A stretch of 64,000 bases of DNA from Argopecten irradians (Eukaryota > Mollusca > Bivalvia > Pectinida > Pectinidae). Numbering within the stretch: position 1 is the stretch's first letter; every line of letters starts with the position of its first letter. The notes below the pieces were generated by a model. That model saw nothing but the letters and a program-made list of their open reading frames with translations. It was not told where the DNA came from and made no database searches. Position numbers and translations under genes: made by a program. Shown piece after piece: positions 5,238-63,638 of this stretch. The DNA lies in NCBI RefSeq assembly GCF_041381155.1, contig NC_091134.1:16494008-16558007 (forward strand), read 5' to 3'.

Positions 5238-6535
5238 TAATTCAGGAGATGAACAGAAAAAAACCCCAAATAGCTTTAAGTTTGCTCTTTATTGAAAATG
5301 TAATTTATATGAATAATCCATCACATTTTCATAATTGTAGAAGTGTTACACTAAATATAGGCGCTCTTTTAGGCCGCACCTTCACTCAAAATTCTTTTCG
5401 ATAAATAATTTGGGTTAAGTAAAAATAAATATTTTCGGCCGCCTTCATAAAAGGTGAGCCAGTTTTCTGCCAAAAATCCTTGTTGCGTTGTTTATTCTTG
5501 ATTATTCATTTTGAGTAAACAGAGCTTGCTGCTTTATGAGAGAGCATACAGAACTGAGGGATACAAAGAAGTGGTCTTTCGATTTTTGTATACGAATAAG
5601 GGGAAAAAACGTAATATCTTCATCCCGGCATGATTACTTCCTCGATCGGTACAATCGATCGCCCCGTGAAATATTAATATAATAAAACCCACATACTCTG
5701 ATTTCAATAATTGACCCATTTCCATTTAGTTTTCAAATATGTGTTGCTTGGTAAATTTTAAATGTTAATATATTAAATTGACCTAATTTGAACATATTGA
5801 ACCTTTTGAATTTTCGGAGGTAAAACTGTACACAAATCATTTAAGCTACCCTAAATTTATAATGACGACGATACTGTTCCGATAGGGTCGTGAAAGATAG
5901 CACAATTGACCCACATACTCTGAATTCAACAATTGACTGATTTCCATTAAAATTTCAAATATTTGTTGCTTGGTAAATTTTACATGATAAAATATTAAAT
6001 TGATTGAATTTGAACATATTAAACCTTTTGAATTTTTGGTTGTAAAACTGTACACAAATCATCGAAGTTACCCTAAATTTATAATGGGGACGATACTGTT
6101 CAGATAGGGTCGTGAAAGATATCACAATTAAAACCACGTACTCTGATTACAATAATTGACTGATTTCCATTTAGTTTTCAAATATTAATTTTCTATTGAT
6201 TGAGTTAGTACATATGGAAAATTTTAAAGCTCAAGTACAAGTGTTAACAAATTATCGAAGGTACCCAATATATCATGGCGAAGAGATACAGTGCCGATCG
6301 AGCTGTGATAGATAGCATAATTTGATATCTAATTAACGGAAAGTGATTTGCAACTACCATAAGCACAGATGTCATACTGTCATCAACCGTCGGCCAGAAC
6401 ACCTGGCCACCACCCCAGGTCATCGCCTCACTTAACTCAACGGGGTTCCATTTACCTGTGTTTGAGTCTCGAAGGCTATACCAATTCAGGTACAACCAAT
6501 TCTTTATTTTCCTTGAGTTTACAACTTCTTGGAAT

Positions 6536-17959: not shown

Positions 17960-19268
17960 TTGATTGCCTCGGGAATATTATTAAGTTACTAATGAAATGC
18001 AGTTCACTATATTTTCTTATTTTCTTCGCAATCCACTTAAAATGATATTGATGCTGCTGAATAAGTTTACAGAATGATTCTAAACTAGTTTATATTGTAT
18101 CTGGGTGCAAATTACAACTACATATACCACAAAGGTGTGGTTATTCAGTTTATTCTTCACGACACCAGCCGGGGGGGTAAAAAGCTAGTTCCGGAATTGC
18201 GATACCAATACTGGTAAAACCAAGTTTTACCGTAAAAACTATTTTTGTTTCTTATTCATGAGACCTTCGTGTTTTCCAGTGGTTTACATTGTACAATTTT
18301 TGTATATTGACGTTCCAAAGCAACTCTACAGTAATAATGAATATATTACATACAAGATCACAATTGTAGAGTTAAAGTAGATACAAGACACGCGTATACA
18401 ATATATTCTTGTGCTCTATTGTTTTTCGTCTAGACTACATTTTGTAATACGCTGTTTAAGTTGTAAAGTGATCTCTCTGATATGACTGCCTGTTTCGACA
18501 AGGCAGTATTTGTACAAATTAATGCCTAGATTTTTTTAGTATTTTATTTAAATCTTATTCTATGTAGATTAAATATTAAACGAAAATCGTCTTGAAAATC
18601 ACAAGTTCACCAAATTTTATAAACACTATTCAAATACTTCGATAAGATAACCTACTCGGTCTAAATATATAGTAACTTCTATTGACAGATGATGATCTCA
18701 GATATAGTAATTTTACCGGAGAAAAATATTTCAAAAAAGAATTTTTTGCATTAAAAGTCTATCAATATGTGTCTAGGTGATTGTCATTTTATGTTAGATA
18801 TGGGGGAGGGGTATTTGTCTTTTGAAATGAAATATGGGTGAATATATTGCTGAATAACCAAATTATTCCGTTATCAAATCGTCAAAGAATACTCCTGTAG
18901 AATTCGTAATGCTATGATAGACATTTAATTAAAAACTTGGTGCACCGTTACCGTTGTTTCAATTCCGTAATGTACATTTGGGCAAGAAATCTACCCAATG
19001 AACACACACTACATGTAATTTGGCAATGAATGCAGAATTTATTCCCGATTTGTGATAAATCAATATACAAAAACAGAAAGAAATGCGGAGAAATAATGTA
19101 ATTAAATCCAATTATTTTTCGTGTGTGCAATAATAACCCTAGACAAAAATATGCTCGTTGTGTATCTAAATCCCATTCGAGACAAGGAAAACAAAAAAGT
19201 TTTAAGGTTTATTTTGATAATTCTATCCACATCTTTACCTTTCAAAAAAGGATACTTTCATTCCATAG
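17960..19268. other. Non-coding (probable intron)
   Basis: No supported exon or repeat seen upstream of the acceptor at 19,268. At least one exon linking 13,012 to 19,269 may lie in 13,013-19,268, but none could be chosen with confidence. Confidence 0.4.
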
Positions 19269-19421
19269 AGCTGTCGTTTTGCAAGAGAAACAGAACAACC
19301 GACTATTGTCACCTGTGTCCTCCTGGAAGTAAGCAGGACCAAGCTGTCTACTCTGGAATGGTCCGTTCTGAAGAGGACATTCCGAAATGTCAACGTATCG
19401 ACACTACGTGTCTTATGCCAG
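19269..19421 (+). CDS. TNFR-like gene, exon encoding first visible cysteine-rich part
   Basis: Acceptor TTTCATTCCATAG|, donor GCCAG|GTTTGT, phase 1 in and out. Encodes ELSFCKRNRTTDYCHLCPPG and on to DTTCLMP: five cysteines with the CxxCPPG pattern of TNFR repeats. The last 16 bases (19,406-19,421) recur exactly 32 bp downstream as the seed of the intronic array. Confidence 0.85.
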
Positions 19422-22400
19422 GTTTGTGGATTAGATAACGTGTCTTATGCCAGGTTTTTGGATTACATTTGTAAATGACGCATCTTATTTCAGGTTTGTG
19501 GATTTAATTACGTATCTTGTGCCATGTTTGTGGTTTAGACATCTTATTTCAGGTTTGTGGATAAAATGACGCATCTTATTTCAGGTTTGTGGATTAAAAG
19601 GCGCATCGTATTTCAGGTTTGTGGATTAAATTACGTACATGTATCTTATGCCAGGTTTGCGGATTAAATGACTTATCTTATTTCAGGTTTGTGGATTAAA
19701 TGACGCATCTTATTTCAGGTTTGTGGATTAAATGACTTATCTTATTTCAGGTTTATGGATTAAATGACGCATCTTATGCCAGGTTTGTGGTTGAATGACT
19801 TACGTTATTTCAGCTTTGTGGATTAAATGACGCATTTTATTTGAGGTTTTTGGATTAAATGACTCATCTGATGCCAGGTTTGTGGATTAAATGACGAATC
19901 TTATTTTAGGTTTGCGGATTAAATGACGCATCTAATGCCAGGTTTGTGGATGAAATGACTTATCGTTTGTGGATTAAATGACGCATCTTATTTCAGTTTG
20001 TGGATTAAATGACGCATCTAATTTGAGGTTTGTGGATTAAATGACGCATCTAATGCCAGGTTTGTGGATGAAATGACTTATCTTATTTCAGGTTTGTGGA
20101 TTAAATGGCGCATCTAATGCCCTGTTTGTGGATGAAATGACTTATCTTATTTCAAGTTTGTGGATTAAATGACGCATCTTATTTCAGGTTTGTGGTTAAA
20201 TGACTTATTTTATTTCAGGTTTGTGGATTAAATAACGAATCTTATTTGACGTTTGTGGATTAAACGACGCATTTTATTTGAGGTTTATGGATTAAATGAC
20301 GCATCTGATGCCAGGTTTGTGGATTAAGTGACAAATCTTATTCGAGGTTTGTGGATTAAATGACTTATCTTATTTCAGGTTTTTGGATTAAATGACGCAT
20401 CTTATTTGAGTTTTGTGGATTTAATGACGCATCTTATTTCAGGTTTGTTGATTAAATGACGCATCTTATTTTAGGTTTGTGGATTAAAAGGCGCATCATA
20501 TTTCAGGTTTGTGGATTAAATTACGTACATGTATCTTATGCCAGGTTTGCGGATTAAATGACGAATTTTATTTCAGGTTTGTGGATTAAATGACGCATCT
20601 TATTTCAGATTTGTGGATTAAATGACTTATCTTATTTCAGGTTTGTGGATTAAATGACGCATCTTATTTGAGTTTTGTGGATTTAATGACGCATCTTATT
20701 TCAGGTTTGTGGAGTAAATGACGCATCTTATGCCAGGTTTGTCGATTAAATGACGCATCTTATTTTAGGTTTGTGGATTAAATGACGCATCTTATTTCAG
20801 TTTTGTGGATTAAATGACGCATCTTATTTCAGGTTTGTGGATTAAATTACGTACATGTATCTTATGCCAGGTTTGCGGATTAAATGACGAATTTTATTTC
20901 AGGTTTGTGGATTAAATGACGCATCTTATTTCAGCTTTGTGGATTAAATGACGCATTTTATTTGAGGTTTTTGGATTAAATGACTCATCTGATGCCAGGT
21001 TTGTGGATTAAATGACGAATCTTATTTTAGGTTTGCGGATTAAATGACGCATCTAATGCCAGGTTTGTGGATGAAATGACTTATCTTATTTCAAGTTTGT
21101 GGATTAAATGACGCATCTTATTTCAGGTTTGTGGTTAAATGACTTATTTTATTTGAGGTTTGTGGATTAAATAACGAATCTTATTTGACGTTTAAGGATT
21201 AAACGACGCATTTTATTTGAGGTTTATGGATTAAATGACGCATCTGATGCCAGGTTTGTGGATTAAGTGACAAATATTATTCGAGGTTTGTGGATTAAAT
21301 GACTTATCTTATTTCAGGTTTGTGGATTAAATGACGCATCTTATGCCAGGTTTGTCGATTAAATGACGCATCTTATTTTAGGTTTGTGGATTAAAAGGCG
21401 CATCATATTTCAGGTTTGTGGATTAAATTACGTACATGTATCTTATGCCAGGTTTGCAGATTAAATGACTTATCTTATTTCAGCTTTGTGGATTAAATGA
21501 CGCATTTTATTTGAGGTTTTTGGATTAAATGACTCATCTGATGCCAGGTTTATGGATTAAATGACGAATCTTATTTGAGGTTTGTGGATTAAATGACGCA
21601 TCTAATGCCAGGTTTGTGGATGAAATGACTTATCTTATTTCAGGTTTGTGGATTAAATGACGCATCTAATGCCCTGTTTGTGGATGAAATGACTTATCTT
21701 ATTTCAAGTTTGTGGATTAAATGACGCATCTTATTTCAGGTGTGTGGTTAAATGACTTATTTTATTTCAGGTTTGTGGATTAAATAACGAATCTTATTTG
21801 ACGTTTGTGGATTAAACGACGCATTTTATTTGAGGTTTATGGATTAAATGACGCATCGGATGCCAGGTTTGTGGATTAAGTGACAAATCTTATTCGAGGT
21901 TTGTGGATTAAATGACTTATCTTATTTCAGGTTTGTGGATTAAATGACGCATCTTATTTGAGTTTTGTGGATTTAATGACACATCTTATTTCAGGTTTGT
22001 GGAGTAAATGACGCATCTTATGCCAGGTTTGTCGATTAAATGACGCATCTTATTTTAGGTTTGTGGATTAAATGACGCATCTTATTTCAGTTTTGTGGAT
22101 TAAATGACGCATCTTATTTCAGGTTTATGGATTAAATGACGAATTTTATTTCAGGTTTGTGGATTAAATGACGCATCTTATTTGAGGTTTGTGGATTAAA
22201 TGAAATTTGTGTGTGTGTCTGGGGTGTCTAAAATGATAACATATTGGTACATTTAGTTTTATATCATGACATTAATTATTTTTTGTTTTGCAATGTATTA
22301 AAGTTTGGCCTTATCAATGAAATCATAAGTTTAATTAGAATTTAACTGTAAGTTACTATTGTATACATGTACATTGTAAATTTTGTTGGTATCGTCGGAA

Positions 22401-25400
22401 ACCCACGGTAAATTGCACTTACGTTACGCTTCACTTGTGATAAGTGAAGCGTAGCGTTGTGCAATCGTACAGCCAACCGTGATTAGTGTAGCGAAGCATA
22501 GTGCAATCAACCGTGGGCCTCCGACGATGTACTGTACTGTTTAAGGCTTTGTTTATGTGTCATCAATATAAATGTCTGGACTACCTGATTATTATCCGAG
22601 TTTATAGTCATATGAAAACGCTTATACTTGTATGACCACTCATGGATAGTTGCGAAGAAAAGGATAAGCCGGACTTAAGACCAACCCGGCAACTGCGCAT
22701 GCCCCACAAATGTTAATTTTGAGAAGATTTTGATAAGTTACAAAAAAGGACATTTAAAACAAACAAACAAACACAAAAAACACATTTGAATACTAATATA
22801 ACAATACATTATAATACAACATTAAATTACAATAACTACATAGTAATCTTGTGATATTAAAAGAAATTAACATTTTCTATTTTATAGAAACAATTTCTAT
22901 TGTTGAAAATGGACGCGTTCACTGTGTGTGTGATATATCCCGAGGATATATTGGAGACGATGCGTTCTGCATAAGAATGGGAAGCTGTTCCCCAGGAATG
23001 GAACTCACTAAAACAGGTATGCAGTTATTTATCTAATTCATTTTTGTTTGGTTTGATCAGGGTCATGTAAGAATCGACGTGCCAGGTTTATTGGAGGAGT
23101 AAACCTGAGTAACCTGAGTAAAACCACCGACAGCGGTCAGTACCAGACAACTGCCCCACATAGGATTCGAACTCGTAACCAAGAGGTGGAGGGCTTGTGT
23201 GGATGAGCTGGGACATCTTAACCACTCCCGACATATTTTCACAAGCAATCCACCTCTGGGTCGCGAGTTCGAATCCCGTGTGGGGCAGTTGTCAGGTACT
23301 GACCGCTGGTCGGTGTTTTTATTTATTTAAAGCAATGTTAATACAGCCATCACATTGCATAACATCGCTTTAATCAAGCTTATCTTGACACTTTGAATTA
23401 CATTTCCAAAGTGAAATTATAACAATTCATATATTGTATAGGATTCAAGAATTATTTCTTAGAAACAGTGTAAAAATCAAATGGTATTGTAATAATTAAC
23501 GCCAATTAATCTCGCCCTTAAGAGCTTATTTATAATTTCAGCCTCTTGTACTAATATCATCGCGAGCTGAAACTACAATGTTTAGAGATTCATCATCCTA
23601 TCTTTGAAAATGCTAATTTTCTGTTGCTAAGGTGGTCGATGCATGCCCTGTCCTCAAGGAACATACAAGGCAACGGAAGACTATACATTCTGTCAGCCAC
23701 ATACCAGGTTTGATATTAAGATGCGGGTGCCCTATAGTAATCATGTTGTCCGTCCGTCCGTCCGTCTATCCATTTTATTATTTTCATACAATTATGATGA
23801 GAGGAAATATACTGAGGCTCTCAAATTTGGTAGGATGATTTCCCATGTTATTTAGACATGGTGCGTAACGTTTTGGACTAACCAGATTCAAAATAGTTGT
23901 TCAGCAGCCATATTGGATTTAGCGATGGAGAAATATATGGAAGTTTCAAAACTAGCTTATAAATATTTCGTAATAACATTTTGAAGCAAATTTGTTATCG
24001 TTGTAACCATGTTTTACTATAATGTCATCAGTCATTTTCAAGTCATCTTCGACTGTACATTTCATTGTCAAGATACTATTTTTCTAATCGTAAGACACAT
24101 TAAGCGGGGCCTTTTCGGGCGTGTCTGTGTTCTAGTTCGTGTGTATGAAAGATTTATGTTCATCGCAAACTTTCACCTCATGCTACGGTACATGTAGATA
24201 GACCGTACTGTTATTTGTGCTTTTACAGCTATCTGCATATTTTTTTCTAGATAAATGCCTAGTTACAATATTTAATTGGTAATATAAAAATAATACAATG
24301 ACCTAATACAGTTCATACAATATTATAATTTGGTTTTACAAATGTATATTGTTATAAGTCTTATCAACACTTGACGTAATTTAAGGATGGTATGTACAAT
24401 GTGTTGGGTGTGTTTTTGGAGGCAGCGGTATGTTCGTGCTGTGTCTCCATGTATGTAGGAAAAATAATCACTATTTCGTACTTTATCAATACGTTTTATT
24501 AAAGTGTTGATCAGGTGATTGTATTTCTTCTATTTTCGCGGACTACGTGAAGGGAATGTCCAAACTGTCAATAAATGAAATTACCCATTAGAAATAACTT
24601 TCAAAAGAAGGAAGAGTTTTGACAAATATCAAGCGATCTTGAGTTATTTTCTTTTAAAACATGAACAGTTTTTTGCTGAACTTTGGAAAATAAATTTTAC
24701 GAAATTCGTTAACGTGGTACGTCACATATTTTCGTTCTGACGCTAATGAACGGTTAATTACATATATAGAGAATACATGGTCAGTGTCAAAAAAATATGA
24801 GCTGTATCAGTTGATGTGGACTTCAAACAAGACCATGACGAGTCCTAAACGAATACAGCTAAACTTTATGTGGTACGTGTATACAGCTTAAGATACTGAC
24901 AATGTATAGTGTATGTTTTTATCCTGCAGCATTCATTTAAGACATTTTTCAGCTTAAAAGCATCAAAAATGTTGCAAAATATGTCTTGTCTTCCAAACAA
25001 GTTTCGTTTCGGAAGTAGTTTAATCGAATATACAACTGTTTTCCATCAGTGTCGAATACCGAAAAAGTATAAATATATGTGGTGCATTTTTTCCGTGTAT
25101 TCCGACAACGCCAATGTAGTTGTGTGATAAATTATATTTATACCTATAAAAGGAAATTAACGATATATATACCAATTGAAAATCTTATTCCCTTTGATAT
25201 CGCTAAATGGTTAAATTGTTCAGATATTTTATTTTGTATTATTACGCTTAATCAAACAATAATACGATTGACAGTTGTGATGCGAATGGTAGGGAGACTG
25301 TTGAAGAGGGAAATGCAATCTCGGATACCGTTTGTGGACGGTATTTACAGACAACAAAACAGCTGAAAAGCGTTCACTTGACACCGACCACCGTCGTTAT

Positions 25401-28400
25401 GACCACTTTACCAGATTTCACCGGGAAGACAGATCCGATGATTTTGAAACAGGTGGAACCGAGTTCGACTCACCTGGTCGCTACCCAAAGCGATCCTGAA
25501 TACTCTCTTAGGTTACTACCCTTCCAAATAATTTCCCCTAAAAATTCAGAAGAGTATCAAAGATCTTGACATCAAATGGAACACTCAATATAGATTCTCT
25601 ATGAATTGATGACCATAACCCCCTTCGCATATTTTTAATACTCATGAAGTATGTGTAAATAGAACCTAACTATATCTTTGCCAAAAGATATTGCAAACTT
25701 GATATATAAAAACAAATGTGTGAAAAATAATCAATTACACTTAGATCATCAGAACATGTATACCTATGGTTTGAGATGAAGTTAAAACACCAAGCAAGAT
25801 TCCCTTTATGTTAACATTGAAGGTTCATTTCACTAAATTGTTGTCTGCCGACAGCGGGAAGCATTAGACGACGACATGCCTTATAAAAAATTTCATTAAA
25901 TTTATCTATTCAAAATTGTTTAGGAACTATGTGTTGTATTTATGGTAAACCAATTATTTTTAGGACTGTGCAAAATTATAAAATCTTATTTTACAATCAC
26001 AATTAAAAAAATCGTTTCTGTTAAGGTGTGTACCTTTAAGCTATGCTAAAGTTTTTATGATAGTAAACCATTTGAGTAACTATGTTATTCATTGCTATAC
26101 TGACCTGTTTTTTTCATCTGTTTTCTAGCTTGCTGTACGTTCTTGTAATCCTTGTCGTTGTTCTCCAGTTGATGAGTTTTGGATTCATCGTGTATAGACT
26201 TAATGGAAGATGTTTTAAAAGTAATGTCATAGACATTTTAGCAAAACATTTCCCCGATTTTAAAGCCCCATTATGTTTTTGGGTGAACAAATATCGTCAT
26301 AAAGTACCAAACTTATATAAGCATATAAGCATATATCCTTATGAAAATATCCGCTAATAATAAATGCCCAACATTTCCATGGTTTTCAAAAACAACAGAA
26401 AACCCCTCTTTGGAGAGGAGGGAATCCGTAGTTCCGCCCAAGACCCAAAACAATCTAGTACGCATGCGTAGGCACATAAAAAGTGGAACTTCAACATCAT
26501 GGCAAACGCACTTAATTGTCAGCGGACACACGTGGGTCCGTTGTCTTCAAACAACCACGATTTAGCGGTCAAGTTGCTCAATCGCGATCGACTGCACGTT
26601 ACGAACCCACGCATTCCACGCGCAAACCTACTAATACGATTATGTTGTACATAACCACGTGTTTATATTTGTACGATAAAATACCCCAAATGGTGCCCCA
26701 TCTATGCTTTTCACCATTTACATCCACTATTTGTCGATTATTACGATAATTATAGCATTGCATTACTTAACGTTTGCTCAAAACTGCCCTCTCTCTCGGC
26801 CATGCTTGTTTTGTTTACTATCTGGGTATCGAACATATACGTATACACGAGGTATTTTCAACTATGCAAATCAACCCGTTCTATTTTAAAAATTCTTTAC
26901 TAATTGATTATTGCGTAATTATCTTCATTGGAAAGAAACCAAATGAAGAACCTTTCATAAGGGATGTTAATGTATATTTTAGCAAAATTTGATGAAAGCA
27001 TAATGGGACTTTAACATTAAAGTTATATACGTGCCGTGAATACCAACCAATCAGGCTTTATGTATAATATTCAGCACAAAAACAACAACATATTTAGATC
27101 ACAATATTTACAATGCAAAGAATTGGCGGGGTTAAGTGACTCCATGTACACACCGAGACAATCGGTGGACTACATCATAATTTCATATTTTTACAGTATT
27201 ATCCGTGATTGCAAAGTGAATGTTTTCTAATGTTTTCATTTGATAATGCATGCATAGAAAATTAGGAGTAAATATTCTCCATGGAATAAAGTCTGTATTG
27301 TTGCTAATGTTAATAATACATTAATTGTACAGCTTATTTCAACAGAATTTATGGTTTTCTATAGATTTCATAAGAGAATAAAAATTTGAATTTTCGACCA
27401 GCTGTGGCACTTACAACACCAAGTACAGCACTAAAGGCATATGCAAAACATGTAGCTAGTAAAACCTAAATAATACGGTTACCGGTAAGATATAGTTACA
27501 TACAGCAATCGTTTCCAACAAATCAAATTTTCTTTAATGTCATGTTTTGAAAGCGAAATTACCAAAACATGTTGAGTTGAATGTGTTCTGAAAATGTGAA
27601 TGTACACTCATAGTGTTGCAGAATGTTTATTTTTAGTTATCTTAGATCAGACCTAAAAGTAACACAGCCTAGTCATAATACTAATTTGCCCTTCAATGGC
27701 GGTCTTCAATATGTATTTTTATCTTTTATTTGAAGAACTTGGAAGACCCTATCCGAGGGACAATTATGTCGACATGACAACGATAACTCTTGAAACAGGT
27801 AAAAAAAAGCTTCTGATACACTTATCCTTAAAAGAGTATAATGCCATTCCCATTCTTATCTCTGTCAATGACCCAGTAACTGTCATAGACTCATTATCTG
27901 TCAATGATTCAGTGTCTGTCAATGACTCAGTATCTGTCAGTGACTCGGTGTCTGTCAATGACTCAGTAACTGTCATAGGCTCAGTATCTGTCAATGACTC
28001 AGTTATTATCAATGACTCAGTATCTGTCAGTGACTCAGTTATTGTCAAAGAAAAAGTATCTGTCAATGACTCAGTATCTGTAAATGACTCAGTTACTGTC
28101 AAAGACAATGTATTTGTAAATGACTCAGTTATTGTCAAAGACAAAGTATCTGTCAATGACTCAGTATCTGTCAATGACTCAGTATCTGTCAATGACACAG
28201 TATCTGTCAATGACTCAGTTATTGTCAAAGAAAAAGTATCTGTCAATGACTCAGTATCTGTCAATGACTCAGTATCTGTCAATGACTCAGTGTCTGTCAA
28301 TGACTCAGTATCTGTCAATGACTCAGTTATTGTCAAAGACAAAGTATCTGTCAATGACTCAGTATCTGTCAATGACTCAGTATCTGTCAATGACACAGTA

Positions 28401-31400
28401 TCTGTCAATGACTCAGTTATTTCAAAGAAAAAGTATCTGTCAATGACTCAGTATCTGTAAATGACTCAGTTACTGTCAAAGACAAAGTATCTGTCAATGA
28501 CTCAGTATCTGTCAATGACTCAGTATCTGTAAATGACTCAGTTACTGTCAAAGACAATGTATCTGTCAATGACTCAGTATCTGTCAATGACTCAGTATCT
28601 GTCAATGACTAAGTTATTGTCAAAGATAAAGTATCTGTCAATGACTCAGTTATTGTCAAAGAAAAAGTATCTGTCAATGACTCAGTATCTGTAAATGACT
28701 CAGTTACTGTCAAAGACAAAGTATATGTCAATGACTCAGTATCTGTCAATGACTCAGTGTCTGTCAATGACTCAGTATTTGTCAATGACTCAGTGACGCT
28801 GATTGTTGATCAAATATCGATCAATATACAAATCTAGACCATTTACTTCTTTACTTACACCAGACAGTAAATAAACCGATACCATTTCGCAAATATATTT
28901 ATATAAAAAAGATATGCACTGTTTTTCAACTCATTGGATAATACATGGTCACATGAGACATAAAGCTTTGTCAGTTTAGAAACATCGAGTCAAAATTCCT
29001 TCTGTGACGTCATCAGACAAACTTTGAGTTCTTCAGGGTAACGTCCTATTGCCATCGTTCTTTTTGTAGCGATATATCACCATATATCCTCCCACCCCAC
29101 CTCCGGAATTTCCATTATTGATATCCACTCTCACTGCTCATTTTACCACAAAAGTTCAAAATATTTTTAGTGTTAACGAAACTGTTAAAAACAAAGCAAA
29201 ATTAAATACAGTTTATAACATCGTATCTGCCATGTCATCGTCGGTTATCAGCCTACACTACGTTGCATTCCGAGAGTGCTGCCATATGTGCATATACCAT
29301 ATTTGTAAATAATTCAATTTTGCTTGAAACGAGCATTTGCATTGGCTTAAAAAGTTACTCTATCAGCCCATAAAAGAAAAATATGGCGTTGCTGTTTGTA
29401 ACGTCACTTCTGATTGGATGATATGACGGCGTAATGATGTCATTGACGAGAGAGCCCCAAAATGAAATTTGAATATATAAGAGATTATCTTTAGTAAATT
29501 GAATTACATGGATTAATTTGAATATATGTTTATGTCATGTAAATAAAATATAACAAAAATCTTAATGTACTCTCATCATAAACCGCTTCGCGGTTTATTT
29601 CGGATACTCTCAGAATTTTGTGTTATATCTCCATAACATAAAAATATATTCAAGTTAATCCTTAAATAAGGAAGTGTTTTTAAATGATTATAATCGCGAT
29701 CCCTATAATATGACACTTAGGATGCTACATATGCCTGTACTCAAAACGCAATACTATAAGACTCTTTCATATGTAATTACGGAGAATAGGGATACTCTAC
29801 CTGAAGGTCACAAAATGTAGTTAACCCGAGGCTTGTCGAGGTTTTTAGCACATTTTGTGATCCTGAGGGTAAAATATCCCTCATATCCAGATAAGAAAGA
29901 GTATTGTTCTTTCATACCTCGACGTTTTATTGCAATTTGGCAATTATAATATCCCGCCATTTTGAAATGAGTTCGAAGAAAACCGCGACTGCAAGTCGAT
30001 TCTCCATACTACAAATTACTTGACATTTTCAACGGAAATCCCGTTGTTTGCCACTTTTATAGTAAAACCAGTCTAGTTTCTAAATATTTTTTTTTTAAAT
30101 TGTACAAACAAAGTAGTAATTGTGTTGACGCCGTGACGTCACGAAGCATTATTGCATGGGTAGCTATGTAATACAGCCTCAGGCGACATGAGTGTATTGT
30201 ATCGACCAGCCATGCAGTATTACATCCGTAGGTATAAAAGAAAATATGATCTACCCTATTTCGTCTCTACATGCTACAGAGAAGTCTCTCTGGCGGGAAG
30301 GTTTCAATTGCCATGTCATTAATTTATTAGATTGACATCGTTTTCTCCGAAAATTATGACGTTATTTTGAAAATATGACAACACAAACAAGAGCAGATAA
30401 CTTTTTACTATTCAAGGAAGGAATATCTATCCCGATAAATTACGTCTTCGATATAATGATTTTGAAATTTGGCATCTTAAAATTATTTGTTAATGTTTAA
30501 GTACTGTTTCTTGAAGACTACTGATGCTGTATAATATTGGTGAGGATATGGAATTGAGATAATTCGAATGCTTTTGATTCCATTTCAGTATCTTCTACAG
30601 ATGACAGCGTTAGAAGAAACCAAAAAGAAAGAGCAGGTTAAAATGTGCTGGCTTTATTTTGAAATTGTCATTTTATCGAATCAGATGAAATTATATTCGT
30701 GTTCACCGGGAAACAATTATTGCTTCTTTTTGTTTTATTTAGTTCCTTACACAATGATTCCATTTTTTTCTACTGGGTTCTCATCAGAGATTATCTTGAT
30801 TTAGACCGGATTTATTTTTCGTGAAGTTTGCCGTAATTTAAGTGGGTGCATTGGTTAAATTATTTTGTACACTATACTTTTTCGTGATTTTCATTTAAAG
30901 TCTTCATTTTTTTTATATCGGTGCGGGAATAGAGCAGGTACATGTATACGAATCGGTAAAACATGTAGACCGGGCTAGAGCTAGTATGTCCCTGGCTCGC
31001 CGCTTCTCTTCTGTTACAAAATTGATGTTAATCTAAATACACATAATCTATTAATGTACTTCGAGTTATTTTCGTTTGCAATTATTTACGAAATTGTTAT
31101 AGTTGAACGTTCCTGGGATCGCACTGGTAAACCATCATGTAGATAGTGAATTTGAAATTCCTAAAAATCAATAGTTTTACGGCATATAAATACATGTCAT
31201 TATAAAGTATTATAAATAAACATTTCTAAAACAACTGTGGTAGAAGTTATCATTCTTTGTGACCGGGATGGGATGGTGGCGAATTAATGTGGTTGAGCAG
31301 GTGTTGCTTTACCTCTTTCTTCATATCCGATAGGGGAATTGAACCCCGGTCGTTCTGGTGAAAGGCTAATGTGTTAACACTGTCCAATCTGACCGTTCGA

Positions 31401-39674: not shown

Positions 39675-40245
39675 AGGAATCCGAGGGTTGAAAATGATAA
39701 GATAATGGAAATTTAGCAGACATTGAGGACTGAAAATAATAAGATAGCGGTAGTTAAGCAGACATTAAGGACTGACAATGATAAGATAGCGGTAGTTTAG
39801 CAGACATCGAGGACTGACAATGATAAGATAGCGGTAGTTTAGGAGAATTTGGGGATTGAAAATGATAAGAAGCAGAATCTGTGGGTTGAAAATGATAAGA
39901 TAGCGGTAGTTTAGCAGAATCTGGGGGTTGAAAATGATAAGATAAGGTGGTATAGCAGACATTTAGGACTGACAGTGATAAGATAAGTTGGTTTAACAGA
40001 CATTAAGGACTGACAGTGATAAGATAGCGGTAGTTTAGCCCACATTAAGGACTGAAAATGATAAGATAGCGGTAGTTTAAGAGAATTTGGGGATTGAAAA
40101 TGATAAGAAGTAGAATCTGTGGGTTGAAAATGATAGGATAAGGTGGTTTATCAGATTATGGAGGCTGAAAATGTTAAGATAGCGGTAGTTTAGCAGACAT
40201 TGAGGACTGACAGTGATAAGATAGTGGTAGTTTAGCAGATTGTAG
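39675..40245. repeat. 42-bp minisatellite, array A
   Basis: About 13 units of AAGGACTGACAATGATAAGA followed by TAGCGGTAGTTTAGCAGACATT. Variants contain GGGGATTGAAAATGATAAG. It ends at GCAGATTGTAGGGTAAGATAATG, where the duplicated segment begins. Confidence 0.85.
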
Positions 40246-43171
40246 GGTAAGATAATGAGACGCTGGGCCCGTAAATTGTAGGTAGACCTAGTTAGAAAAT
40301 ACAATTTGTGCATCACAGTGATCGACTTATAAAAGAATTGATCGGTTGCACTGTGTTATTAATAGCCTATTACTTGATTACTATATGATGATCTTAAATC
40401 ATTTGATATATATGTGTTGCGGTCAATTCTTAAGCATTGGTTGTCGTATTTTTTGACATGCATTAGTATTTCACTTACATTGGATAATCAAACATGTACT
40501 ATGTTGCGCGTAAATATGCTAGAAAACCCAATGTGTGTTAGTCACGAATCCACGTCAAAATATTACAACCATTGCATTACATCATTTGATGGAACAGTCG
40601 ATGATTTGCCTTTGAATTTCAGTAAGTTTCGGTCACTTCCAAACAAAAACAGTAAATAGATAAGTTCCATCGACAAACAGGATTTGCAAAGATATATTTT
40701 AATTCCAATGCAGTTGTATATTGACCAATTTTAAAGAATATATTTTCACACAAGTGCGAACCCAGTATTTTCTTGTCCTCTCAAACTCTGATGCACATAT
40801 TACTACGCCAGATCTTAACTTCCAATGTAAACACCTAAAGTCATTAATATATTGAGATTAATAGAAACATATTGCCACTGTGCAAAGACGACCTAAATAT
40901 GAATGGATGCAGTGTATATCTTATCATGTGACATACGTTTATAAATTTACTAATTATGGGATTATTAAAATAAATACAGTAACACATAACTAACACTAGA
41001 TGCGGTCATTTAAAAAAGATTTTATTCTAATAAAATAATTTAACAAAATTCTGCTAGTTCCTTTTTTATATAATACACCATTAAAACACAAATAATTTAG
41101 GTTTTTGTTTATTTATAACGGTTTTATTAAAAAAAACAGTGCTAGTATCACTTCAGCCTCTGCCAAATGTATAGTTCATATCACGTAACTGATCAGCTAG
41201 GTGGCACGAATCTTGATTTAAAACATCGCTCCACTACATGATTGGTCTACAAGATATCCAGACTTTTTGGTTCTTAGTAGTAGACAGAAGTTTAACATTT
41301 AGATCTATCAGAGTTATTCCCCTTTGTTTCACTCCGTAATGACTCAGATAACTCAGAATGACGTATACGTACTCTGTAAGTATAATGAATGAATATACAA
41401 AACATATATAACATCACCTACCACAAAAGCTTACTAACAAATATATCTGTTATAGGAAAAATATACCAAAAAAGTACGAATTATTATTCCATCACTTGAA
41501 AATAATTTTTCTTTAATTATGTTTAAAATCCAGTATAATTCTGTAAATCCAACTTTTAAGAACTCTTTTTTTTCTTGAAATCATTGCGCTGTTGTTTTAA
41601 TCAATTAGAGACAGTGTTATAAATAACGACGTCATTGTTTACGTTATGAGATGATAACATAATTTATTAACCAATGAAAATGCTGTTTACAAGCAAGATT
41701 GAATTATATTACGGATCTCATATATTGTTTTCTTCGTTGAGGAATTACACCCACAAATGTTTATTACTTTTTTAAATTAACACGTGGAAGACTCATTAAA
41801 AATTCAAAGTTGTTATCCTGTAAGAGCTTTTATTATTTTATCAAAGTTACATAGTCCGCCACTTTACCAAGCGTTTCATATTGATTTCTGTCCGTATGTA
41901 CACTGTTCTTTATTCTATGAAGTAGTTTTGGAATTTAAAACAATGGTTATCATATTTTTTAAATAAAAAAAACTTTGGAAGAATATGCTAGATTAAATTA
42001 TGATACATATATTTAAAGTTATGGATGTTGATAAAACGGGTATTTAGAAAAATGTGTTCATGTCTTATGAAAATGTTGTACCTTTACCGGTTTAGACACA
42101 AATAAGGATGTCTTTTGAAAATATTTTGACTTAACCGAATTAGGTAAACATGAATTTCTCTTATAAAAATGTCTCAAGAAAAAAATTCAACTTCATCGTT
42201 TTAGATTCATTTCTCTCACATGGATGACTTACAAAGAAACTGTGTCTTCACCTGATTAGGCATACTTTTATGAAGATATTTTGACTTCACCAGTTTAGGC
42301 ATATTTCGTTTATGATGATGTCCATATTAAAATGCATTTGAACCAAAACCAGGTTTCCTTACAAAACGGTTTCGGGAACGCATTTTGTTGTTTTTCGAAA
42401 CTTTCTTTTCATGACTTTTCCTAAGATAGTTCCAGACCTTTTTGAAGGCATCTTCTGACTTGAAATCGTGATAAGCGATCTGATCAGGGTCCTTGAAAAC
42501 GTCATGATGGAGTAAGTTTAATTTCTTTTCGTCACTTACTTTTATTCCCCACTTATATGCCACTATACCAAGGTAACAGTCATCGATACCCATATATTTT
42601 ACATACGGAAAAGAAAAAACGAAACGTTTGGCTACGTTAGGAGCAACCATGAAGATCCCACCGGACAGATAGGGAGGCCAGTACATAAATGGATATTCCT
42701 CTTCCGAAATAAACCATTTTTTTGTGATTTGCCTGACAACTTTTGCGTTCACATTGAGATGTCCTACCATATCTGGTGTTTTATTCTCCCGATGCATAAT
42801 TATATAATTAAACAGATTAGGCAGGATAAGATAAAGGTCATCATCAATAAAAACAAAGTGCGTAGCATGGCTACAGTGCTCAACAGCCCAATTAAACGTC
42901 ATGATTGTTTTATATGTATTATTCATGTAGGCATCGATGAAAGACTCTTGAACAATATCTCCGTAAATCTTTGCTTCTGTATCAACTGCACCTTGGGTGC
43001 TCGCATTGTAGCCAAGCATGAAAACTATTCTCACATTCTTATACTCTGTCGTATTTCCCCAAGTGATGCGAATTGATTTCCGTAAATGGGCGTTGCTTAC
43101 TGCAGATTTCACCAAAATAACCAATGAAATATTATTCATTGTCTCACATTTACAATGACTTGTATGTAGAT
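40246..43171 (-). repeat. Segmental duplication, copy 1
   Basis: Matches 45,216-48,731 nearly base for base (for example GCATTGGTTGTCGTATTTTT, the GT31 gene body). Differences seen: a 24-bp gap near 40,695 relative to copy 2, a small rearrangement near 40,830, a few substitutions, and absence of the 571-bp MITE of copy 2. It stops abruptly inside the GT31 coding region at 43,171, where array B begins. Real recent tandem duplication or unmerged haplotypes are both possible. Confidence 0.85.
42060..42310. repeat. Degenerate tandem repeat in the GT31 3' flank, copy 1
   Basis: Loose units of about 60 bp containing GAAAATATTTTGACTT and variants of ACCGGTTTAGACAC or ACCAGTTTAGGCAT, just past the stop codon. 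Probably in the 3' UTR. The same region is present at about 47,620-47,870. Confidence 0.5.
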
Positions 43172-43184
43172 AAAGGACTGACAA
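42327..43184 (-). pseudogene. 5'-truncated copy of the GT31 glycosyltransferase gene
   Basis: From YLHTSHCKCETMNN to the stop it is identical in protein to the full gene at 47,885-49,255, including the catalytic-domain motifs RKSIRITWG, FIDDDLY, YWPPYLSGGIF and GIDDCYLGI. The N-terminal 180 residues or so (membrane anchor and stem) are absent. The first few codons of the open frame (MSVL) come from the 42-bp repeat, not from the gene. Without the signal anchor the product could not reach the Golgi in the usual way, so it is treated as a non-functional copy, though the domain itself is intact. Confidence 0.8.
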
Positions 43185-45215
43185 TGATAAGATAGCGGTA
43201 GTTTAGCAGACATTAAGGACTGACAATGATAAGATAGCGGTAGTTTAGCAGACATTAAGGACTGACAATGATAAGATAGCGGTAGTTTAGCAGACATTAA
43301 GGACTGACAATGATAAGATAGCGGTAGTTTAGCAGACATCGAGGACTGACAATGATAAGATAGCGGTAGTTTAGCAGACATTGTGGACTGACAATGATAA
43401 GATAGCGGTAGTTTAGCAGACATTCGAGGACTGACAATGATAAGATAGCGGTAGTTTAGCAGACATTGAGGACTGACAATGATAAGATAGCGGTAGTTTA
43501 GCAGACATCGAGGACTGACAATGATAAGATAGCGGTAGTTAAGCAGACATTGAGGACTGACAATGATAAGATAGCGGTAGATTAGCAGAATCTGGGGGTT
43601 GAAAATGATTAGATAAGGTGGTTTATCAGAATCTGGGGGTTGAAAATGATAAGATAGCGGTAGTTTAGCAGACATCGAGGACTGAAAATGATCAGATAAC
43701 GGTAGTTTAGCAGACATTAAGGACTGACAATGATAAGATAGCGGTAGTTTAGCAGACATCGAGGACTGAAAATGATAAGATAGCGGTAGTTTAGCAGACA
43801 TTAAGGACTGACAATGATAAGATAGCGGTAGTTTAGCAGACATTAAGGACTGACAATGATAAGATAGCGGTAGTTTAGCAGACATCGAGGACTGAAAATG
43901 ATAAGATAGCGGTAGTTTAGCAGACATTGAGGACTGACAGTGATAAGATAGCGGTAGTTTAGCCCACATTAAGGACTGACAATGATAAGATAGCGGTAGT
44001 TTAGTAGACATCGAGAACTGAAAATGATAAGATAGCGGCAGTTTAGCAGACATTAAGGACTTACAGTGATAAGATAGCGGTAGTTTAGCCCACATCGAGG
44101 ACTGACAGTGATAAGATAGCGGTAGTTTAGGAGAATTTAGGGATTGAAAATGATAAGAAGCAGAATCTGTGGGTTGACAATGATAAGATAGCGGTAGTTT
44201 AGCAGAATCTGGGGGTTGAAAATTATAAGATAGCGGTCGTTTAGCAGACATTAAGGACTGACAATGATAAGATAGCGGTAGTTTAGCAGACATCGAGAAC
44301 TGAAAATGATAAGATAGTGGCAGTTTAGGAGAATTTGGGGATTGAAAATGATAAGAAGCAGAATCTGTGGGTGGAAAATGATAAGATAGCGGTAGTTTAG
44401 GAGAATTTGGGGATTGAAAATGATAAAAAGCAGAATCTGTATCTTGAAAATGATAAGATAGCGGTAGTTTAGCAGACATTAAGGACTGACAGTGATAAGA
44501 TAGCGGTAGTTTAGCAGACATTAAGGACTGACAATGATAAGATAGCGGTAGTTTAGCAGACATCGAGAACTGAAAATGATAAGATAGCGGCAGTTTAGGA
44601 GTATTTGGGGATTGAAAATGATAAGAAGCAGAATCAGGGAGTTGAAAATGATAAGATAGCGGTAGTTTAGCAGACATTAAGGACTGCCAATGATAAGATA
44701 GCGGTAGTTTAACAGACATTAAGGACTGCCAATGATAAGATAGCGGTAGTTTAGCAGACATTAAGGACTGACAATGATAAGATAGCGGTAGTTTTAACAG
44801 ACATTAAGGACTGACAATGATAAGATGGCGATAGTTAAGCAGACATTGAGGACAGACAATGATAAGATAGCGGTAGTTTAGCAGACATTAAGGACTGACA
44901 ATGATAAGATAGCGGTAGTTTAGCAGACATTAAGGACTGACAATGATAAGATAGCGGTAGTTTAGCAGACATCGAGGACTGAAAATGATAAAATAGCGGC
45001 AGTTTAGGAGAATTTGGGGATTGAAAATAATAAGAAGCAGAATCTGTGGGTTGATAATGATAAGATAGCGGTAGTTTAGCAGAATCTGGGGGTTGAAAAT
45101 GATAGGATAAGGTGGTTTATCAGATTATGGAGGCTGAAAATGTTAAGATAGCGGTAGTTTAGCAGACATTGAGGACTGGCAGTGATAAGATATTGGTAGT
45201 TTAGCAGATTGTAGG
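43172..45215. repeat. 42-bp minisatellite, array B
   Basis: About 48 units of the same 42-bp repeat as array A. The unit is 14 codons long with no stop on the minus strand, which creates a 541-codon open frame (43,136-44,761) reading SAKLPLSYHCQSLM over and over. Blocks with GAATTTGGGGATTGAAAATG and GCAGAATCTGTGGG recur, showing higher-order structure. It joins the truncated GT31 copy on its left to duplicated copy 2 on its right. Confidence 0.9.
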
Positions 45216-61038: not shown

Positions 61039-61158
61039 CATGCATTATAAATGTCACCACGAATACGTAATCATCATTCAAGGAATATAGAATCCAATGA
61101 TATACAAGAGGCCCATGGGCCTTAACGGTCATCTGACTAATAGTACAATACAACATAG

Positions 61159-63638
61159 TCGTTTAAAGATCTTAGCCTATTTGACCCCTATGACCTTGAA
61201 TGAAGATCAAGGTCATTCATTTGAACAAAATTGGTAGCCCTTCATCCCAGCATGCGACAGGCCTAATATCAGGTCTCTAGGCCTCTTAGTTATTCACAAG
61301 AACTTGTTTAAAGGATTTTAGCCTATTTGACCCCTGTGACCTTGAATGAAGGTCATAAGTCATTTATTTGAACAGACTTGGTAGCCCTTCATCCATGCGC
61401 ATCCTGCAGGCCCAATATCAGTACCCTAGGCCTTCTGGTTCTTGAGAAGAAATCGTTTAAAGATTTTAGCCTATTTGACCCCTATGACCTTGAAAGAAGG
61501 TCAAGGTCATTTATTTGAACAAACTTGGTAGCCCTTCATCCCAGCATTCTACAGGCCTAATATCAGGTCTCTAGGCCTCTTAGTTATTCACAAGAAGTTG
61601 TTTAAAGGATTCTAGCCTTTTTGACCCCTTTGACCCTGAATGAACGTCAAGGTCATTTATTTGAACAAACTTGGTAGCCCTTCATCCATGCATCCTACAG
61701 GCCCAATATCAGTACCCTGGGCCTTCTGGTTCTTGAGAAGAAGTCGTTTAAAGATTTTAGCCTTTTTGACCCCTTTGACCTTGAATGAAGGTCAAGGTCA
61801 TTCATTTGAACAAACTTGGTAGCCCTTCATCCCAGCATGTCACAGGCCCAATATCAGTACCTTGGGCCTTCTGGTTCTCGAGAAGAATTCGTTTAAAGAT
61901 TTTAGCCTATTTGACCCCTTTGACCTTGAATGAAGGTCAAGGTCATTCATTTGAACAAACTTGGTAGCCCTTCATCCCAGCATGCCACAGGCCTAATATC
62001 AGGTCTCTAGGCCTCTTAGTTATTCACAAGAAGTTGTTTAAAGGATTTTAGCCTATTTGACCCCTGTGACCTTGAATGAAGGTCAAGGTCATTTATTTGA
62101 ACAAACTTGGTAGCCCTTCATCCCAGCATCCTACAGGCCCAATATCAGTACCCAAGGCCTTCTGGTTCTTGAGAAGAAATCGTTTAAAGATTTTAGCCTA
62201 TTTGACCCCTATGACCTTGAAAGAAGGTCAAGGTCATTTATTTGAACAAACTTGGTAGCCCTTCATCCCAGCATTCTACAGGCCTAATATCAGGTCTCTA
62301 GGCCTCTTAGTTATTCACAAGAAGTTGTTTAAAGGATTTTAGCCTATTTGACCCCTGTGACCTTGAATGAAGGTCAAGGTCATTTATTTGAACAAACTTG
62401 GTAGCCCTTCATCCCAGCATCCTACAGGCCCAATATCAGTACCCAAGGCCTTCTGGTTCTTGAGAAGAAATCGTTTAAAGATTTTAGCCTATTTGACCCC
62501 TATGACCTTGAAAGAAGGTCAAGGTCATTTATTTGAACAAACTTGGTAGCCCTTCATCCCAGCATTCTACAGGCCTAATATCAGGTCTCTAGGCCTCTTA
62601 GTTATTCACAAGAAGTTGTTTAAAGGATTTTAGCCTATTTGACCCCTTTGACCTTGAATGAAGGTCAAGGTCATTCATTTGAACAAACTTGGTAGCCCTT
62701 CATCCCAGCATGTCACAGGCCCAATATCAGTACCCTGGGCCTTCTGGTTCTTGAGAAGAAGTCGTTTAAAGATTTTAGCCTTTTTGACCCCTTTGACCCT
62801 GAATGAAGGTCAAGGTCATTTATTTGAACAAACTTGGTAGCCCTTCATCCATGCATCCTACAGGCCCAATATCAGTACCCTGGGCCTTCTGGTTCTTGAG
62901 AAGAAGTCGTTTAAAGATTTTAGCCTATTTGACCCCTTTGACCTTGAATGAAGGTCAAGGTCATTCATTTGAACAAACTTGGTAGCCCTTCATCCCAGCA
63001 TGTCACAGGCCCAATATCAGTACCCTGGGCCTTCTGGTTCTTGAGAAGAAGTCGTTTAAAGATTTTAGCCTATTTGACCCCTTTGACCTTGAATGAAGGT
63101 CAAGGTCATTCATTTGAACAAACTTGGTAGCCCTTCATCCCAGCATGCCACAGGCCTAATATCAGGTCTCTAGGCCTCTTAGTTATTCACAAGAAGTTGT
63201 TTAAAGGATTTTAGCCTATTTGACCCCTGTGACCTTGAATGAAGGTCAAGGTCATTTATTTGAACAAACTTGGTAGCCCTTCATCCCAGCATCCTACAGG
63301 CCGAATATCAGTACCCTGGGCCTTCTGGTTCTTGAGAAGAAGTTGTTTAAAGGATTTTAGCCTATTTGACCCTGTGACCTTAAATGAAGGTCAAGGTCAT
63401 TTATTTGAACAAACTTGGTAGCCCTTCATCCCAGCATCCTACAGGCCGAATATCAGTACCCTGGGCCTTCTGGTTTTTGAGAAGAAGTCGTTTAAAGATT
63501 TTAGCCTATTTGACCCCTGTGACCTTGAATGAAGGTCAAGGTCATTCATTTGAACAAACTTGGTAGCCCTTCATCCCAGCAACCTACAGGCCAAATATGA
63601 GTACCCTGGGCCTTCCGGTTATTGAGAAGAAGTCGTTT
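61159..63638 (+). repeat. 145-bp satellite array inside the Helitron-like element
   Basis: About 17 units of 145-146 bp, each with TTTAGCCTATTTGACCCC, GGTCAAGGTCATT and CTTGGTAGCCCTTCATCC. Two variants exist: one with CAGTACCCTGGGCCTTCTGG, one with AGGTCTCTAGGCCTCTTAG. They alternate in places, giving a 291-bp dimer; two successive dimers (about 62,040-62,330 and 62,331-62,621) are almost identical. Confidence 0.9.

Follow-up and report, generated by a model that had tools for sequence, protein, structure and literature searches.

The closest described relative of the locus analysed here is a human minisatellite that reportedly supplies splice donors, several of which, going by the title of the report (Turri, from 1995), are said to be used in the transcript. 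We take the gene in question to be 6-16 (the 6-16/IFI6 type), with the array presumably at an exon-intron junction, and the unit is said to measure 12 bp and to occur in about 26 copies. The type is, we assume, defined by units with donor-like sites in an array that includes the real donor. The array in our window (the whole stretch of 64,000 nucleotides of Argopecten irradians DNA that was analysed) is likewise a minisatellite with donor units, its donor-like sites being known from sequence alone: AG/GT stands in 67 of 87 units (a slash marks the splice boundary throughout), and unit 1 carries what is probably the real donor. It differs in its 32-bp unit and 87-91 copies, against 12 bp and about 26 there, and in that array-free paralogs give the polarity of its founder exon end. 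Interference with gene splicing appears among the functions of minisatellites in a passage of PMC3618361, where Turri 1995 is cited for it; the same work is also listed among the references of PMC2572611.

A second comparison is with the gain of introns through tandem duplication of exon segments that carry AGGT (the Rogers model, with ATP2A1 and the fission yeast SPOG_01682 and SOCG_00815 as cases, in passages of PMC4974935 and PMC3629103). For the fission yeast cases, the motif is given as AGGT in the former passage and as AGGC in the latter. The likeness is that a short segment bearing proto-splice sites, once copied in tandem, gives rise to several alternative splice sites (passages of PMC4974935 and PMC3629103). 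However, intron gain by this route implies an intron missing from relatives without the duplication, whereas the intron in the window also occurs, with identical place and phase, in two array-free paralogs; the copies thus enlarge an existing intron and create none.

The likeness to the Drosophila ratchet points treated in a passage of PMC8605326 lies in the AG/GT juxtaposition and nothing more, and the locus differs from them in that a 3.5-kb intron contains tens of copies, one every 32 bp. Ordinary intronic minisatellites or VNTRs (units some 10-100 bp long, tandemly repeated in arrays that exceed several hundred bp; here 32 bp in 85-87 copies) share its unit length, variant repeats, block duplications and haplotype length difference, but here the left edge lies in a coding exon and the splice donor is included. 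Beyond these named systems, no further array of the splice-donor kind was found in the open-licence literature, searched mostly by titles and abstract openings, and the locus looks like a member of a rare, already described kind of repeat. Its best explanation as a whole, in which we have high confidence, is a donor-spanning 32-bp tandem duplication that grew into a passive, unstable minisatellite. It also offers a natural experiment in the choice of a 5′ splice site by the spliceosome among dozens of near-identical copies at 32-base steps. Since the founder, the copies, two haplotypes of unequal length and array-free paralogs occur in one genome, donor choice can be measured directly against copy number.

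Host gene and array structure

The exon that borders the array (Table 1) encodes ...ELSFCKRNRTTDYCHLCPPGSKQDQAVYSGMVRSEEDIPKCQRIDTTCLMP, its first codon being completed by an upstream exon that was not found. It matches two distinct paralogs (E 2.0e-12 and 7.6e-15), in which the junction has the same phase, so the exon-intron junction at 19421 is supported by homology. A fourth exon, from about 25273, also matches, and the four exons occur in matching order in paralogs A and B. The predicted host protein has a cysteine-rich, TNFR/ephrin-receptor-like ectodomain, a name that is descriptive and implies no family membership. Among the listed Pfam matches of the three-exon peptide none reached its curated cut-off (Ephrin_rec_like, 20.5 bits against 23.1; TNFR_ELAPOR1_6th, 19.5 against 33.2; DUF5874, 18.8 against 27.1), and a curated cysteine-rich domain above cut-off, as expected of a TNF-receptor-like ectodomain proper, is thus lacking. 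Matches to solved structures were weak, the best being decoy receptor 3 (E 0.14). Further downstream, positions 28994-29059 show 73% protein-level similarity to paralog A, with an in-frame stop here (TLSSSG*RPIA). Because the window and the paralog A locus do not agree in the order of this segment relative to 30013, it may be non-coding conserved DNA or a repeat.

Table 1. Positions in the window of the array, the flanking exons and the sites relevant to splicing.
Feature	Position	Strand	Remarks
Exon	19269-19421	+	153 bp, phase 1 at both ends (from frame and acceptor); ends ...TTCLMP-G; homologous in two paralogs
Founder unit	19406-19437	+	16 exon and 16 intron bases across the donor; 16/16 repeat at 19438-19453
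Array	19406-22202	+	87 units of about 32 bp; 38 exact CAG/GTTTGT, 67 AG/GT, 78 GT; block (higher-order) duplications
Predicted authentic donor, CAG/GTTTGT	19419-19427 (boundary 19421/19422)	+	Position and phase as for the predicted donors of the array-free paralogs
Host intron	19422-22887	+	3466 bp, of which array 2781 bp; acceptor TATTTTATAG; paralog introns 923 and 1137 bp
In-frame TAA	19436-19438	+	After GLWIR; any downstream decoy would put TAA in the mRNA; same letters in C157
Unit 2 exon half, now intronic	19438-19453	+	Repeats the final 16 bases of the exon exactly; its donor GTTTTT
First exact decoy donor, CAG/GTTTGT (unit 3)	19491-19499 (boundary 19493/19494)	+	72 bases past the true donor
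Next coding exon	22888-23016	+	129 bp, phase 1 at both ends; donor CAG/GTATGC; homologous in paralogs
Third homologous exon	23632-23707	+	GGRCMPCPQGTY...CQPHT; 3′ end uncertain

The last 16 bases of the exon, ACGTGTCTTATGCCAG (19406-19421), recur exactly, 16 of 16, at an offset of 32 bp, as the sequence-only reading had claimed. Given that the match falls in the register of the array, chance is no serious alternative as its source. Wrap-around alignment resolved 87 units with the left edge inside the exon, which bears out the earlier estimate of about 85 units of 32 bp with a correction of the count; TRF reports 85.2 copies of a 32-bp unit at 19472-22203. The units range from 24 to 40 bp: 69 measure 32 bp, six 31 bp, four 36 bp and another four 34 bp, and lengths of 40, 30, 29 and 24 bp occur once each. 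Each was also supposed to carry a copy or variant of the donor: the exact CAG/GTTTGT is present in 38/87 units (37/86 without unit 1) and AG/GT in 67/87, but GT occupies the donor position in 78/87 and not in all. All 38 exact copies of this 9-mer lie on the + strand of the array, with none on its - strand and none on either strand of the remaining 61.2 kb of the window.

In the 16-mer register, unit 1 is half exonic and half intronic. The array unit consensus is ACGCATCTTATTTCAG/GTTTGTGGATTAAATG, and its exon half differs from the exon by four substitutions. Over 59 distinct units, the exon half is more drifted than the intron half (mean deviation 0.143 versus 0.061). Counted over aligned letters with insertions uncounted, the exon half of unit 2 is at distance 0 from the exon, and those of units 8, 36, 46 and 64 are one substitution away.

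Two assembled copies of the array

The array is present a second time on a 71-kb contig (C157), with 91 units against the 87 in C1, the contig of the window. Three flank alignments contain many gaps and show 14 mismatches over 1152 columns, 12 over 1331 and 2 over 340; the overall flank identity is 93-96% when gaps are counted. The exon 19269-19421 is identical in C157, and the next exon is not letter-identical. Judged from these flanks, C157 is presumed to be the second haplotype, or allele, of the window locus; an assembly error or a recent duplicate is a possible reading instead. The two assembled copies thus differ in length in the manner of VNTR alleles, with the allele status of C157 presumed. 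Unit-level alignment of C1 and C157 paired 86 units, of which 71 are identical; it contains 19 edits across 2,765 bases and three gaps at the level of units (+1, -1 and +4).

Comparisons at increasing lags, with units 1 and 2 left out, showed that immediate neighbours (lag 1) differ by a mean of 6.0 edits in both copies, above lags 2-4, with no identical pairs among 84 (C1) or 88 (C157). At lag 52 in C157, the identical pairs number 20/37 (mean 2.4 edits); for C1, the figure at lag 48 is 8/37 (mean 4.1 edits). The divergence at lag 1 together with the identity at lags 48 and 52 suggests that the first-order growth in 32-bp steps is old and that later growth proceeded by large blocks.

At least five other tandem arrays occur in the window, at 5681-6186, 27861-28794, 39677-40258, 43174-45208 and 61157-63638, with units of 222, 18, 42, 42 and 145 bp, respectively. 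The 18-bp array sits in a long open frame, 27663-28460 (+), with VNDSVSVNDSV repeats. Since tandem arrays are common in the 64-kb window, one array touching an exon is less surprising.

Direction of copying

Both paralogs lie on the same contig as the window: paralog A at C1:20.33 Mb (a further, near-identical copy of it lies at 20.29 Mb) and paralog B at C1:12.51 Mb on the - strand. The pair at 20329.5k and 20290.9k was treated as a single paralog, which leaves two distinct relatives as the basis of the polarity. The two copies of A (L012/L019 and L013/L020) are separated by 38.6 kb and have the same letters in their exons and at the starts of their introns, which marks a recent duplication or conversion. 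Weak further matches on C2, C9 and C13 (E 0.44, 2.78 and 4.87) were unconvincing on inspection and were dropped.

The exon in the window ends ACG TGT CTT ATG CCA G/GTTTGT. Paralog A has GAG TGC, no third codon, then ATG CCG G/GTACGT (predicted donor CGG/GTACGT), and paralog B has GAT TGT, again no third codon, then CCG CCA G/GTAAAA (predicted donor CAG/GTAAAA). In the same register, the array consensus reads ACG CAT CTT ATT TCA G/GTTTGT. At the four positions that distinguish exon from array, the exon has T, G, G and C and the array C, A, T and T; paralogs A and B both have T, G, G and C. Their introns, of 923 bp in A and 1137 bp in B, are identical to the window intron in place and phase. TRF on fetched 10-kb pieces found no 32-bp array in A (L019) or B (L021), a check that covered these two pieces and left out the twin of A (L020). 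Paralog B has an array of its own, with units of about 71 bp (L021, 815-2196; 16.6 copies over 815-1990), downstream and away from the homologous donor.

The unit is confined to one locus. In the 846-Mb genome, the consensus 32-mer with at most three mismatches gave 105 forward and no reverse matches, and its backwards control none; all 105 were placed, 52 in the window array and 53 in the C157 array. The exon-like 28-mer gave 22 matches genome-wide, all 22 at the window locus and C157, with no match for its backwards control. These counts are complete and not lower bounds. A dispersed origin of the unit, which would have told against the sequence-only reading, is therefore rejected: every counted match, 105/105 and 22/22, lies at the locus or its presumed allele. 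The agreement at 4/4 positions argues strongly for polarity only jointly with this confinement, because coding constraint alone would also retain the exon states. Together, the confinement to the locus and the exon states in two array-free paralogs support the earlier proposal that the array was seeded by the gene's own donor.

In the opposite direction of events, an existing intronic array would have spread to the left and overwritten the exon end by conversion, or shifted the donor. The CTT codon, present in the window exon and in the array unit and missing from both distinct paralogs, is consistent with this and leaves a small opening for array-exon exchange or conversion of the exon end. 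So is the identity of the exon halves of units 1 and 2 (19406-19477), whose intron halves differ, in both haplotypes; this pattern may also reflect a later exchange between the exon and unit 2, the first intronic copy. However, the array-free paralogs conserve the Cys and Pro codons at the end of the exon and carry the exon states at all four diagnostic positions, the genome-wide search gave no source of the unit elsewhere, and the array would have to resemble the exon by chance. We consider such a leftward spread highly improbable.

We infer instead that a 32-bp stretch over the splice donor, 16 exon and 16 intron bases, underwent tandem duplication at some point in the history of the gene. 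The second copy would have been intronic, hence without coding constraint, and slippage or unequal exchange, followed by block duplications, would have expanded the repeat to about 90 units. The coding copy would have retained the founder letters while the intronic copies drifted from TGTCTTATGCCAG to CATCTTATTTCAG, and the donor-like sites would be relics of the origin of the array. This suggests the ends of coding exons as a starting point from which minisatellites can arise.

Decoy donors and splicing

Donors were scored with a generic matrix and, as a second measure, by U1 pairing energy. The set of real donors numbered nine, with those of window E3, paralog A E2 and paralog A E3 (where the cut lay one base off or the exon end is uncertain) left out. 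On the generic matrix, the predicted true donor scores 1.69, and 38/86 decoys in C1 and 41/90 in C157 score at least as high; 34/86 and 38/90, respectively, pair with U1 at least as well. The sequence-only reading had the spliceosome choosing between the true donor and dozens of decoys, and this is supported at the level of sequence. The nearest decoy (unit 2, boundary 19453) is weakened at +5, as GTTTTT.

Since the predicted true donor is weak on the generic matrix, its use is not assured by strength. The site GAA/GTAAGC at 19329, inside its own exon, outscores it (3.04 versus 1.69, generic matrix), as do three non-array sites between 22300 and 23100 (including ones near 22348 and 23067), one of which is the donor of the next exon. 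The first donor is presumably dominant, and would be the one mostly used because it closes an exon of normal size, 153 nt. Minor use of decoys would lead to an early stop and loss of the mRNA.

The repeated donors could instead have a function, as a bank of decoys or a platform for U1 binding that lowers or tunes receptor output or makes truncated forms, with the dose set by unit number. The two alleles carry 37 (C1) and 40 (C157) exact intronic donor copies, or 38 and 41 with unit 1, and their unit numbers differ; any decoy gives a stop after GLWIR, and the 153-nt exon has equal phases (phase 1 on both sides), so that its loss by skipping would preserve the frame. More specifically, a length-variable bank of cloned donors might tune the receptor, more units giving more intronic U1 capture and more stop-containing or exon-skipped mRNA. 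If true, the dose of such an (immune-type) receptor would be set by allele length in natural populations. We regard a functional array in general as very unlikely, and give this dosage version as little credence.

Donor-critical columns are kept no better than others. Raw per-unit change counts are inflated by block duplication, and the donor columns were therefore compared over the 59 distinct unit types, with unit 1 left out. Positions -1, +1, +2 and +5 had 24 changes, against a mean of 17.9 for all four-column sets from -3 to +16, 21% of which are as high as the donor-column sum. Over these 59 units the decoy donors thus show no clear preservation and no preferential loss by selection, which suggests a passive, unstable minisatellite. 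Moreover, the 300 nt folded (19268-19567) showed no RNA structure better than shuffles (z 1.02; 168/200 shuffles fold at least as well).

Finally, each unit might serve as a joined acceptor and donor (TTTCAG/GTTTGT), the intron being removed stepwise by recursive splicing. YAG/GT is present in 54/87 units and TTTYAG/GT in 34/87, and ratchet points are juxtaposed acceptor and donor sites in a passage of PMC8605326. The same paper describes them as abundant within long introns, whereas this intron has just 3.5 kb. We find stepwise removal scarcely credible here: the pyrimidine stretch, read from the letters, is short and interrupted, and a spacing of 32 bp between copies is unlike that of ordinary ratchet points.
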